A stretch of DNA of 64,000 bases from Armatimonadota bacterium (GTDB lineage Bacteria; Sysuimicrobiota; Sysuimicrobiia; Sysuimicrobiales; Humicultoraceae): the NCBI GenBank assembly GCA_031459855.1, contig JAVKHP010000001.1, positions 1,222,059 to 1,286,058 of the forward strand, in the 5' to 3' direction. The position numbers and the translations under genes were made by a program. Shown piece by piece: positions 61,046 through 64,000 of the stretch. The notes under the pieces are model-generated. The model was not told where the DNA came from, did no database searches, and saw only the letters and a program-made list of their open reading frames with translations. Position 1 is the first letter of the stretch, and every line of letters starts with the position of its first letter.

Positions 61046-61074
61046 TTGACGGGGACGCGTGTACAGGGTACGCT
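61046..61074 (+). promoter_or_regulatory. Predicted promoter of the metal-transport operon
   Basis: TTGACG at 61046-61051 and TACGCT at 61069-61074 are spaced by 17 bases, a good housekeeping-type promoter. The predicted transcription start falls at the edge of the DtxR-like palindrome. Confidence 0.5.
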
Positions 61075-61086
61075 ATCGGAGTAGTA

Positions 61087-61102
61087 TTTAGGTTAGACTA
61101 AA
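61087..61102. promoter_or_regulatory. DtxR/MntR-type operator (metal box)
   Basis: TTTAGGTTAGACTAAA stands out as AT-rich in very GC-rich surroundings. It is an imperfect palindrome with TTTAG/CTAAA arms, close to the known DtxR/IdeR/SirR box (TTAGGTTAG-centred). It lies between the predicted promoter and the ATG at 61115, so a metal-loaded repressor here would shut off the uptake operon. Confidence 0.7.
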
Positions 61103-61114
61103 ATTTTCCAGCTG

Positions 61115-62107
61115 ATGCGCCCTTCCATCGACAGCCAGGCGACGGCTCGCCCATCCTGGCAGCTCGTCGGCGTACTCGTCCTCGCGCTGGTGGCGGGCTG
61201 CAGCCCGCGTGGGGCGCCGTCGACCAGCTCGGGGACGTCGCACGGGAGCGGACCAGCGGGTACGCCTGTCCTCCGGGCGGTCGCGACGTATTCCGTGATC
61301 GCCGATCTGGCCCGGCAGGTCGGCGGCGACCGCGTGCAGGTCGTCAGCCTGGTCCCACCGGGCACCGACCCGCACACCTACGAACCCCGGCCCGACGACC
61401 TCAAGCGCGTCGCCGACGCGCACGTGATCTTCTACAACGGGCTGAACCTGGAACTGTGGTTTGACAAGCTCGTCCGCGGGTCGGGCACCCGGGCGCGCGT
61501 GGTCGTGGCCTCCACGGGCGTGACGCCCATCGTGATCCGGGATCCGCTCAGCCGGTACGACGGCGCCCCCGACCCGCACGCCTGGATGGACGTGCGGCTC
61601 GTGATCCAGCACTACGTGCCCACCATCCGCGACGCGTTCATCGCGCTGGATCCCGCTGGCGCCGACCACTACCGGCGCACCGCGGAGCGGTACGTCGCCG
61701 AGCTCGACGCCCTCGACCGCGCGATTCGGGCGCAGGTGGCCACCATCCCGCCGCCGCGGCGCAAGCTCGTGACCACCGAGAACGCCATGCACTACTTCGC
61801 CGCGCGCTACGGGTTCACGGTCGTCGGCTGGATCTACACCCTGGCACCGGAGGCCGAGCCACCGGCACGCCGAATCGTGGAGCTGGTGGGGAAGATCCGG
61901 CAGGAGGCCGTTCCCGCGCTCTTCGTCGACGTCACCCTCAACCGGAAGTTGATGGAGCGGCTGAGCCAGGAGACCGGGGTGCCGATCCGCGGTGCGCTCT
62001 ACATCGATTCCCTGGGCGCGCCCGGGAGCGGCGCCGACACGTACGCGGGCATGATGCGGGCCAACACCGCGTTGTTGGTCAGAGGCCTGGGAGGCAACGG
62101 GCCGTGA
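61115..62107 (+). CDS. mntA: Metal ABC transporter substrate-binding lipoprotein, Mn/Fe type (MntA/PsaA-like)
   Basis: A 330-residue cluster 9 binding protein with a lipoprotein signal (LVAGC). Metal ligands can be assigned by motif: H87 in GTDPHTYEP, H155 in PDPHAWMD, E222 in TTENAMHYFA and D298 in YIDSLGAPGSGADTYAGMM. The His-His-Glu-Asp set is that of Mn-binding PsaA/MntA; zinc-type ZnuA has His at the third place and a His-rich loop, absent here. GTGA overlap with the ATPase gene. Confidence 0.88.
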   Translation: MRPSIDSQATARPSWQLVGVLVLALVAGCSPRGAPSTSSGTSHGSGPAGTPVLRAVATYSVIADLARQVGGDRVQVVSLVPPGTDPHTYEPRPDDLKRVADAHVIFYNGLNLELWFDKLVRGSGTRARVVVASTGVTPIVIRDPLSRYDGAPDPHAWMDVRLVIQHYVPTIRDAFIALDPAGADHYRRTAERYVAELDALDRAIRAQVATIPPPRRKLVTTENAMHYFAARYGFTVVGWIYTLAPEAEPPARRIVELVGKIRQEAVPALFVDVTLNRKLMERLSQETGVPIRGALYIDSLGAPGSGADTYAGMMRANTALLVRGLGGNGP

Positions 62108-62862
62108 CGCCGGCGGTCGAGGTCCACAACCTGAGCGTCGCCTACGACACCCGCCCGGTGCTCCTGGGCGTCTCCCTCACCGTGCAGCGGGGCGAGGTGG
62201 TCGGGGTCATCGGCCCCAATGGCGCCGGCAAGTCCACCTTCTTCCGGGCGCTGCTGGGGCTGGTGACGCCCTGGACCGGGTGGATCCGGCTGCTGGGCGG
62301 CGACGTGACGACCAACCGGCGGTGGGTGGCCTATCTGCCGCAGCGGGAGGCCATCGACTGGGACTTCCCGCTCGTCGTGAGCGACGTGGTCATGATGGGC
62401 CGCTATCCCCACCTCGGCTGGGGACGGCGGCCGCGTCCCGAGGACCGGCGGATCGTGGCCGCCTGTCTGGACGCCCTGGGGATTGCCGACCTGCACGACC
62501 GGCCCATCGGCGCCCTCTCGGGAGGCCAGCAGCAGCGAACGTTCCTCGCGCGGGCGCTGGCGCAGGAGGCGCAGATCCTGCTGCTCGACGAGCCGTTCAT
62601 GGGCGTGGATGCGGCCACCGAGCAGGCGATCCTGGCGACGCTGCAGCGGCTGCGCGCCGAGGGGAAAACCGCGCTCATCGTCGACCACGACCTCACGCGC
62701 GCCGGGGCCGGCACCTACGACCGGGTCCTCCTGCTGAACCAGCGGCTGGTCGCCTACGGGCCGCCGGCGGAGGTGCTCACGACCGAGGTGCTGCGCACCA
62801 CCTACGCCGGCCGCCTCACGCCGCTGGAACGCCTTGGGACGCCCGGAGGGCGGTCCGCATGA
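62104..62862 (+). CDS. mntB: Metal ABC transporter ATP-binding protein (MntB/ZnuC-like)
   Basis: A 252-residue ATPase: Walker A GPNGAGKST, Q-loop YLPQREAIDWDFPLVVSDVVMMGRYPHLGWGRRP (a wording typical of the Mn/Zn cluster 9 family), signature LSGGQQQRTFLARALAQEA, Walker B ILLLDEPFMGVDA and H-loop IVDHDLTRA. GTG start overlaps the binding-protein stop, and its own stop overlaps the permease start as ATGA. Confidence 0.93.
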   Translation: MTPAVEVHNLSVAYDTRPVLLGVSLTVQRGEVVGVIGPNGAGKSTFFRALLGLVTPWTGWIRLLGGDVTTNRRWVAYLPQREAIDWDFPLVVSDVVMMGRYPHLGWGRRPRPEDRRIVAACLDALGIADLHDRPIGALSGGQQQRTFLARALAQEAQILLLDEPFMGVDAATEQAILATLQRLRAEGKTALIVDHDLTRAGAGTYDRVLLLNQRLVAYGPPAEVLTTEVLRTTYAGRLTPLERLGTPGGRSA

Positions 62863-64000
62863 CGCTGCTGCGGTCCCTGGTCGAGCCGCTGCAGTACACG
62901 TTCATGCAGCAGGCGCTGGTGGGGGCGATCCTGGTCGGCGTGACCTGCGCCGTGATGGGCAGCTTCCTGCTGGTCAAGCGCTGGGCGTTGCTGGGCGACG
63001 CCATCTCCCACGCCGTCCTGCCCGGGGTGGCCGTGGCCTTCCTGCTGGGCGTCCCCTTCGTCGTTGGGGCGCTGGTGACCGGGCTGCTCACCGCGCTTGG
63101 CATCGGCTTCGTGGAGCGGCACACGCGCCTCAAGCAGGACGCGGCCATGGGGCTGCTCTTCGTCAGCGCGTTCGCCCTGGGGCTGGCGATCATCAGCCGC
63201 ATCCGCAGCCCCGTGGATCTGTTCCACGTGCTGTTCGGCAACGTCCTGGCCGTCAGCCGGGGCGACCTGCTGCTCACGGGCAGCGCCGGTCTGGTCGTGG
63301 TCCTCACGATCGTCGTCCTCTTCAAGGAGCTGTTGCTGTGGGCGTTCGACCCCACCATGGCGGAGAGCGTGGGGCTGCCGGTGCGCGCGCTGCACTACCT
63401 CATGCTCCTGCTCACCTCGCTGACCATCGTGGCGTCGCTGCAGGCCGTCGGGATCGTGCTGGTGATCGCCATGCTCATCGCGCCGCCAGCGACCGCCCTC
63501 CTGCTCACGGATCGCTTCCACCGCCTGATCGTCCTGGCCGCGGGCATCGGCGTCGGCGCCGCGGTGGTCGGGCTGTTCCTCTCCTACTACCTCGACGTGG
63601 CCTCCGGCGCGGCCATGGCACTGGTCGGCACGCTGGCGTTCGGCCTCGCCCTGGGCTTCTCGCCGCGGCGGGGCCTGGTGGCCCGGGCGCTCCGCCGACG
63701 TCGAGCGTCGGTCGAGGCCCGCGTGGACGACTACCTCAAGGCGCTCTTCGCCCAGCCGGCGGGCCACGCGACCCTCCCGGAGGTCCTGGGCAACCGGCTG
63801 AGTGAGCCCGCGCCGACCGTCCGCGCCACCGTCCGCCGTCTGGTCGACCTCGGCCTCGCGGAGGTGACGCCGCACGGGGTGCGGCTCACCGCACGGGGAC
63901 GGCGGCAGGCGGCGGAGGTCGTGCGGGCCCACCGGCTCTGGGAGCGGTTCCTGGTCGACCGCGCCGGCCTGCCCTGGGAGGAGGTGCATGCCGCGGCCGA
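62859..64000 (+). CDS. Metal ABC permease fused to DtxR/MntR-like regulator domain (C-terminus cut by window)
   Basis: 380 residues are visible, with no stop. Residues 1 to about 272 are an ABC-3 family metal permease with seven to nine membrane segments: GSFLLVKRWALLGDAISHAVLPGVAVAFLLG, LKQDAAMGLLFVSAFALGLAI, MAESVGLPVRALHYLMLLL and GIVLVIAMLIAPPATALLLTDRF. From about 285 a winged-helix domain follows that resembles MntR/DtxR: VDDYLKALF, LSEPAPTVRATVRRLVDLGLAEVTPHGVRLTARGRRQA, then HRLWERFLVDRAGLPWEEVH. D291 and H358 match two MntR metal ligands; the Glu at the third place is K294. Compare Chlamydia YtgCR. Confidence 0.88.
   Translation, partial: MTLLRSLVEPLQYTFMQQALVGAILVGVTCAVMGSFLLVKRWALLGDAISHAVLPGVAVAFLLGVPFVVGALVTGLLTALGIGFVERHTRLKQDAAMGLLFVSAFALGLAIISRIRSPVDLFHVLFGNVLAVSRGDLLLTGSAGLVVVLTIVVLFKELLLWAFDPTMAESVGLPVRALHYLMLLLTSLTIVASLQAVGIVLVIAMLIAPPATALLLTDRFHRLIVLAAGIGVGAAVVGLFLSYYLDVASGAAMALVGTLAFGLALGFSPRRGLVARALRRRRASVEARVDDYLKALFAQPAGHATLPEVLGNRLSEPAPTVRATVRRLVDLGLAEVTPHGVRLTARGRRQAAEVVRAHRLWERFLVDRAGLPWEEVHAAA

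Follow-up and report, generated by a model that had tools for sequence, protein, structure and literature searches.

The window analysed here is a stretch of 64,000 nucleotides (contig 1, 1222059-1286058), and bases beyond its edge were taken from that contig. At the end of the window lies an operon on the forward strand. The first gene (61115-62107) encodes a putative TroA/PsaA-type metal substrate-binding lipoprotein; its best NCBIfam models are AztC, Deinococcus MntC and EfaA, each under its own cut-off. The second open reading frame (62104-62862) encodes the probable ATP-binding subunit of a metal importer, and its best NCBIfam model, the manganese ABC ATPase MntA, is likewise under its own cut-off. 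The closest models for the two proteins are mainly those of Mn/Zn/Fe importer subunits. The ATPase gene shares 4 bases with each neighbouring gene, and the third gene encodes a fusion of a permease and a DtxR-type module. It is the only permease gene of the operon, and a second, YtgD-like permease is absent. The operon also has no stand-alone dtxR, unlike the operons of seven relatives. A possible sigma-70-like promoter was read by eye upstream of the first gene (TTGACG at 61046-61051 and TACGCT at 61069-61074, separated by 17 bases). The palindrome TTTAGGTTAGACTAAA, a putative operator noticed in the first-pass annotation as a box at 61087, is present at 61087-61102 on the forward strand. It consists of the arms TTTAG and CTAAA around GTTAGA, and it ends 12 bases ahead of the start codon of the first gene.

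The frame of the fusion gene starts with the ATG at 62859, runs without a stop codon to the window edge at 64000, and ends with a stop codon at 64370, 370 bases beyond the edge. The encoded protein of 503 amino acids consists of an ABC-3 permease, a winged-helix segment, a DtxR-type metal-binding/dimerisation domain and a FeoA/SH3 domain, in this order. The permease domain (residues 12-265, 62892-63653) matches PF00950 with an E-value of 1.7e-77, it has the permease fold, and the substrate-binding protein and ATPase genes adjoin it. The metal-binding/dimerisation domain (residues 344-413, 63888-64000 and on to 64097) matches Fe_dep_repr_C (PF02742) with an E-value of 6.6e-24, and residues 427-496 match FeoA with an E-value of 1.9e-14. 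Thus, the uninterrupted reading from permease to DtxR module claimed in the first-pass annotation was borne out by the open frame, the Pfam domains and eight full-length orthologues. Its proposal to look past the window edge also led to a full metal/dimerisation domain, with the ligand-aligned residues E384 and H385, followed by FeoA/SH3. The domain search that it suggested found ABC-3 and Fe_dep_repr_C; the third expected domain, the DtxR DNA-binding domain Fe_dep_repress (PF01325), gave no match in the fusion protein at E<=0.001. A PF01325 scan of the whole genome gave no match at the place of the fusion, and two other proteins exceeded the cut-off. The segment between the permease and the metal domain (residues 286-343, 63714-63887) is regarded as a degenerate winged helix according to the missing PF01325 match, the conservation contrast and dN/dS ratios described below, and the structure model. 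As judged from the sequence, only the metal half of the fused DtxR module is well kept.

According to the alignment with the ligands of DtxR, the metal site of the fusion protein consists of D291 (M10 in DtxR), H358 (H79), E362 (E83), H377 (H98), D381 (C102), E384 (E105) and H385 (H106). D291 and H358 had already been placed at metal-ligand positions from the window sequence, and both assignments hold. The statement that one Glu ligand is replaced by Lys came from comparison of the wrong position: K294 corresponds to Arg13 of DtxR/IdeR, a position at which Lys also occurs in the stand-alone paralogues. A ligand census was performed with 26 broad tails and 40 chlamydial tails, one protein being common to both sets. 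No tail of either set deviates at the positions of DtxR E83, E105 and H106. His occupies the position of H79 in 25 of the 26 broad and all 40 chlamydial tails, and that of H98 in 20/26 and 40/40. The residue at the C102 position is acidic (Asp or Glu) in 23/26 and 40/40. At the M10 position, 17 of the broad tails have Asp, and the chlamydial tails have Asn or His. With the PF02742 match and these ligand residues, the tail belongs to the DtxR family.

The full-length fusion is kept in eight other genomes from two families of the order, with 52-70% identity (70% in G004 of the same family, and 52-55% in seven genomes of the other family). A frameshift or sequencing error separating the two parts, which the first-pass annotation had named as a danger, was not found, and the fusion is open in all eight relatives. 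Beyond the order, fusions were verified in 14 further genomes of 13 families. In the order of one of these genomes (G158), 44 of 52 genomes match its fusion at E<=1e-60. The permeases of four members bear a WWW motif, which marks YtgCR of Chlamydiaceae (PMC7755916), and we therefore take this order to be Chlamydiales. Two YtgCR relatives of the chlamydial order (L205:1480-2757 and L207:1456-2700) have deletions that take away much of the DNA-binding part, and an intact metal domain. Permeases with other additions were also observed. In the two-permease operons L128, L130 and L178, permease tails of about 90 residues look like a winged helix only, with no DtxR metal domain, and in Chloroflexi/Anaerolineae (L056:7210-8718, L065, L067 and L083) the ABC-3 domain of the second permease of a pair is interrupted in its middle by about 100 additional residues. 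Permease-repressor fusions have already been reported from 11 phyla (Thompson et al. 2012, as cited in PMC5599777), and the window protein is one more case of this known architecture.

The descent of the metal domain was analysed with a maximum-likelihood tree. In this unrooted tree of 74 columns, 31 fused rows form one group and 19 stand-alone rows form the other (support 96/90, 97% of bootstrap trees). The window module and Chlamydia YtgR share the fused group, and the kinship with YtgCR suggested in the first-pass annotation is thus supported. A recent duplication of the neighbouring stand-alone dtxR was rejected as the origin of the fused module, as the fused and stand-alone metal domains of the seven genomes are 49% identical and fall in different groups of the tree.

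An AlphaFold2 model was made for the window part of the protein only (380 residues, 37-row alignment), with a mean pLDDT of 89 and a pTM of 0.79. In the model, one continuous helix (residues 273-298, 63675-63752) begins just past the last membrane helix and continues into the first helix of the DtxR module, and the junction has no long flexible linker. The winged helix follows this helix, with a low pLDDT of 57-58 at residues 301-320. According to a Foldseek search, the permease model resembles PsaC of the manganese importer PsaBC (7kyp) with a TM-score of 0.89 by target length and about 39% identity. PsaC has this permease fold without a sensor tail. The tail was placed among IdeR/DtxR two-domain structures (E about 0.3, probability 1.00), and its best PDB relatives include 5zr4, 4o5v and IdeR (1fx7). 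The helix 273-298 holds an RRRR cluster, which, located after the last membrane helix, suggests by the positive-inside rule that the tail is cytoplasmic.

In the seven relatives of the other family, the operon has the order DtxR - substrate-binding protein - ATPase - permease::DtxR, with the stand-alone copy first and the fused copy last. These operons serve as a paired control, as both copies come from the same genomes. The mean pairwise identities of the fused and stand-alone copies are equal in the metal domain (0.79 and 0.79) and in the FeoA domain (0.62 and 0.62), whereas they differ in the DNA-binding part (0.49 fused, 0.79 stand-alone) and in its helices 2-3 (0.45 and 0.77). The column entropy of the DNA-binding part is 1.09 bits in the fused copies and 0.43 bits in the stand-alone copies (p = 1.5e-5), whereas the two kinds of copy are indistinguishable in the metal domain (p = 0.77) and in the FeoA domain (p = 0.83). 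Five pairs among the seven genomes gave dN/dS ratios of 0.36-0.76 for the fused DNA-binding part, 0.07-0.20 for the stand-alone DNA-binding part and 0.05-0.12 for the fused metal domain; these values, from 57-71 codons each, are noisy, the pairs are not independent, and the value of 0.76 rests on a low dS. Between the fused copies of the window genome and its nearest orthologue G004, dN/dS is 0.92 for the DNA-binding part and 0.48 for the metal domain.

The same contrast was observed more widely. Among 26 fused tails, 19 of which come from outside the order, PF02742 was found in all 26 and PF01325 in only two. Both domains were found in 19 of 19 stand-alone proteins. Those from outside the order were collected with similarity searches that also covered the DNA-binding part, so that intact proteins are favoured; the paired comparison of the seven genomes is free of this bias. 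In three fused tails (L163:5271-5630, L207 and L205), most of helices 2-3 is gone and the metal motif is retained. The identity within the chlamydial order is 0.29 for the DNA-binding part, 0.60 for the metal domain and 0.45 for the permease. The window copy retains some IdeR-like letters, PTV in helix 3. On these sequence comparisons, the fused DNA-binding part is under relaxed constraint: the fold of the winged helix appears to be kept, and its DNA-reading sequence is not conserved. Since dN/dS is below 1, something in this part is probably still selected; the relaxed constraint would also fit a gradual loss of any function of the DNA-binding part. As for the DtxR/MntR-like repressor domain of the first-pass annotation, a full metal sensor is present in the chain, whereas the role of DNA-binding repressor of its own operon does not stand up well against a DNA-binding part that evolves fast and is not recognised by Pfam.

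The palindrome has another candidate reader. The exact pattern TTTAG-N6-CTAAA occurs at only two sites in the genome of 3.19 Mb. The second site, TTTAGGAGAAACTAAA at 861314, is located just ahead of an operon whose genes encode a multicopper oxidase, a ZIP-type transporter and, last, a stand-alone MntR-type regulator (858372-859040). This locus spans 858354-861329 of contig 1 (L132:6355-9330), and its operon probably forms a manganese regulon together with the window operon. As the backward control pattern gave seven matches with up to one mismatch in the window genome, only exact sites were counted as evidence. The stand-alone MntR-type protein has an intact DNA-binding domain, and its recognition region is 69% identical to those of the stand-alone repressors of the seven relatives, whereas that of the fused module is 18% identical. 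Because of this difference, and because the palindrome precedes its own operon, the stand-alone MntR-type protein is the likelier reader, as far as sequence comparison can tell. In the seven relatives, the motif precedes the dtxR-led operon, often doubled and in several cases with mismatches. In G004, G007 and G001, an exact site is located about 2.1-2.4 kb upstream of a stand-alone DtxR; upstream of the ABC operon of G004 (L117, upstream of 5078, minus strand) no TTTAG-N6-CTAAA was found, and the site of this genome is the one near the stand-alone DtxR. A classical IdeR box was also considered. The window site fits TTAGGTTAGNCTAA, yet the form common to the relatives is TTTAG-N6-CTAAA, and this assignment was rejected. 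The PF01325 scan shows two separate DtxR-type repressors besides the fusion in the window genome. At about 110146-111521 of contig 1 (L131:4147-5522), a Fur-like gene is followed by a third DtxR-type gene, divergent from the gene for an iron ABC-type substrate-binding protein. The near-perfect palindrome TTAGGCTAGCCTTA lies between them, and the locus looks like the iron counterpart.

We propose that the fused DtxR-derived sensor is a cytoplasmic gate, which inhibits the importer when metal is plentiful. We give this reading a probability of roughly 50%. The fusion protein would be the membrane subunit of a PsaA/MntC-type importer, presumably for manganese or iron. As the operon has one permease gene, the permease probably forms a homodimer with two sensor modules, and the short rigid helix would hold these modules next to the ATPases. 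Once metal from the cytoplasm occupies the DtxR-type sites, the two tails would be locked together through their metal/dimerisation domains, and the locked tails would block the transport cycle by trans-inhibition, like the C-terminal domains of MetNI and ModABC. The separate MntR-type repressor, reading TTTAG-N6-CTAAA, would control transcription. A metal sensor anchored on the cytoplasmic side of a metal importer is in keeping with feedback inhibition. The gate is favoured by the paired control, in which the metal and FeoA domains are equally conserved and the DNA-binding part is not, with agreement of the dN/dS ratios. It is also favoured by the presence of PF02742 in every fused tail against PF01325 in two, by the invariant equivalents of E362, E384 and H385 and the nearly invariant H358 equivalent, by the palindrome common to the MntR operon, and by the continuous helix in the model. 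Finally, feedback control of ABC importers by fused ligand-binding domains, such as those at the C-termini of MetNI and ModABC, is an established principle (PMC10710835), and the same source lists a helix-turn-helix as the element with which an osmolyte transporter of Lactococcus lactis senses osmolarity. The architecture found here, a ligand-sensing dimer domain fused to a transporter subunit, is that of a trans-inhibited importer.

In a mechanism of the YtgCR type, the chain would be cleaved or would stay tethered, and the C-terminal DtxR module would repress the operon at the 61087 palindrome. This agrees with the position of the window module in the phylogenetic group of YtgR, with the DtxR-like palindrome at the promoter and with the absence of a stand-alone dtxR from the window operon. 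For YtgR of C. trachomatis, both cleavage and iron-dependent DNA binding have been reported (PMC5599777, PMC7755916 and PMC6504234). The DNA binding is reported despite an equally divergent DNA-binding part, which counts against the gate, as do the IdeR-like letters of the window copy, the dN/dS below 1 in the fused DNA-binding part and the possible gradual loss of function. On the other hand, PF01325 does not match the DNA-binding part of the window module, where constraint is relaxed, the palindrome also fronts the operon of the stand-alone MntR-type protein, whose DNA-binding domain is intact, and the modelled junction is a helix with no loose linker. An internal start yielding a free repressor was rejected, as the start codons near the junction are at positions not conserved among the nine orthologues; the GTG just before DDYLKAL in the window genome is CTG in the nearest orthologue. 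We regard repression by the fused module as fairly unlikely.

The winged helix may instead have a structural or assembly role, packing on the ATPase or on the partner permease, with a metal site for stabilising the fold or for targeting the complex to proteolysis, and not for gating transport. The two-permease operons L130 and L178, with winged-helix-like tails of about 90 residues and no metal domain, suggest a role which needs neither DNA nor metal. However, the metal-site residues are among the most conserved of the tail, and with the low dN/dS of the fused metal domain in the relatives they indicate that the metal half is under selection, which is hard to explain by a passive role. This explanation is unlikely. 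A DtxR-type site located on a transporter might also act as a relay or store, taking the ion at the cytoplasmic exit and handing it to other clients or to the stand-alone MntR, and stand-alone MntR-type proteins are indeed present in the same genomes. We know of no precedent for DtxR domains as metallochaperones, and consider such a role very improbable. A frameshift, a chimeric assembly or a read-through joining two genes can practically be dismissed, as eight relatives within the order, and many genomes besides, carry full-length open fusions.

The metal-sensing gate proposed here is related to several known systems. Chlamydia YtgCR (CT069) has the ABC-3 permease followed by the DtxR metal/dimerisation domain in one chain, its metal domain belongs to the same group, and its DNA-binding part is equally divergent. 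YtgCR has no FeoA/SH3 domain and works with a second permease, YtgD, whereas the window module has FeoA/SH3 and its operon has one permease. No other PF01325 protein was found in six of the seven chlamydial genomes scanned, whereas the window genome has its two separate DtxR-type repressors. The DNA binding and cleavage of YtgR are experimental results, and the window fusion is known from its sequence. The fusions of the 11 phyla, with the same architecture as the window protein, were proposed as transcriptional regulators (Thompson et al. 2012, via PMC5599777), whereas the conservation pattern in the window protein argues for a role other than DNA binding. The fused tail shares the metal-domain residues, the SH3/FeoA domain and the winged-helix fold with the repressors IdeR, DtxR and MntR, but its DNA-binding sequence is not conserved and it is tethered to a membrane domain. 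MetNI and ModABC similarly have a cytoplasmic C-terminal ligand-sensing dimer domain on the importer (PMC10710835); their domain has another fold, is located on the ATPase subunit and has been shown to inhibit, whereas the DtxR module is located on the permease and its inhibition is proposed here.

Permease-repressor fusions are usually read through Chlamydia, as transport and transcription control in one chain. The paired comparison suggests that in most fusions the metal sensor was retained and the ability to read DNA was lost. It is possible, and we suggest it tentatively, that permease-fused DtxR modules as a class, across many bacterial lineages, are metal-sensing gates of ABC importers, converted from a transcription factor, with DNA binding by YtgR as the exception. 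If this is true, direct feedback by metal would be a property of a whole class of Mn/Fe/Zn importers, and the fold of a repressor would have found a new use in gating a transporter. The label 'iron-dependent repressor', which these tails routinely receive in annotation, would then be misleading.
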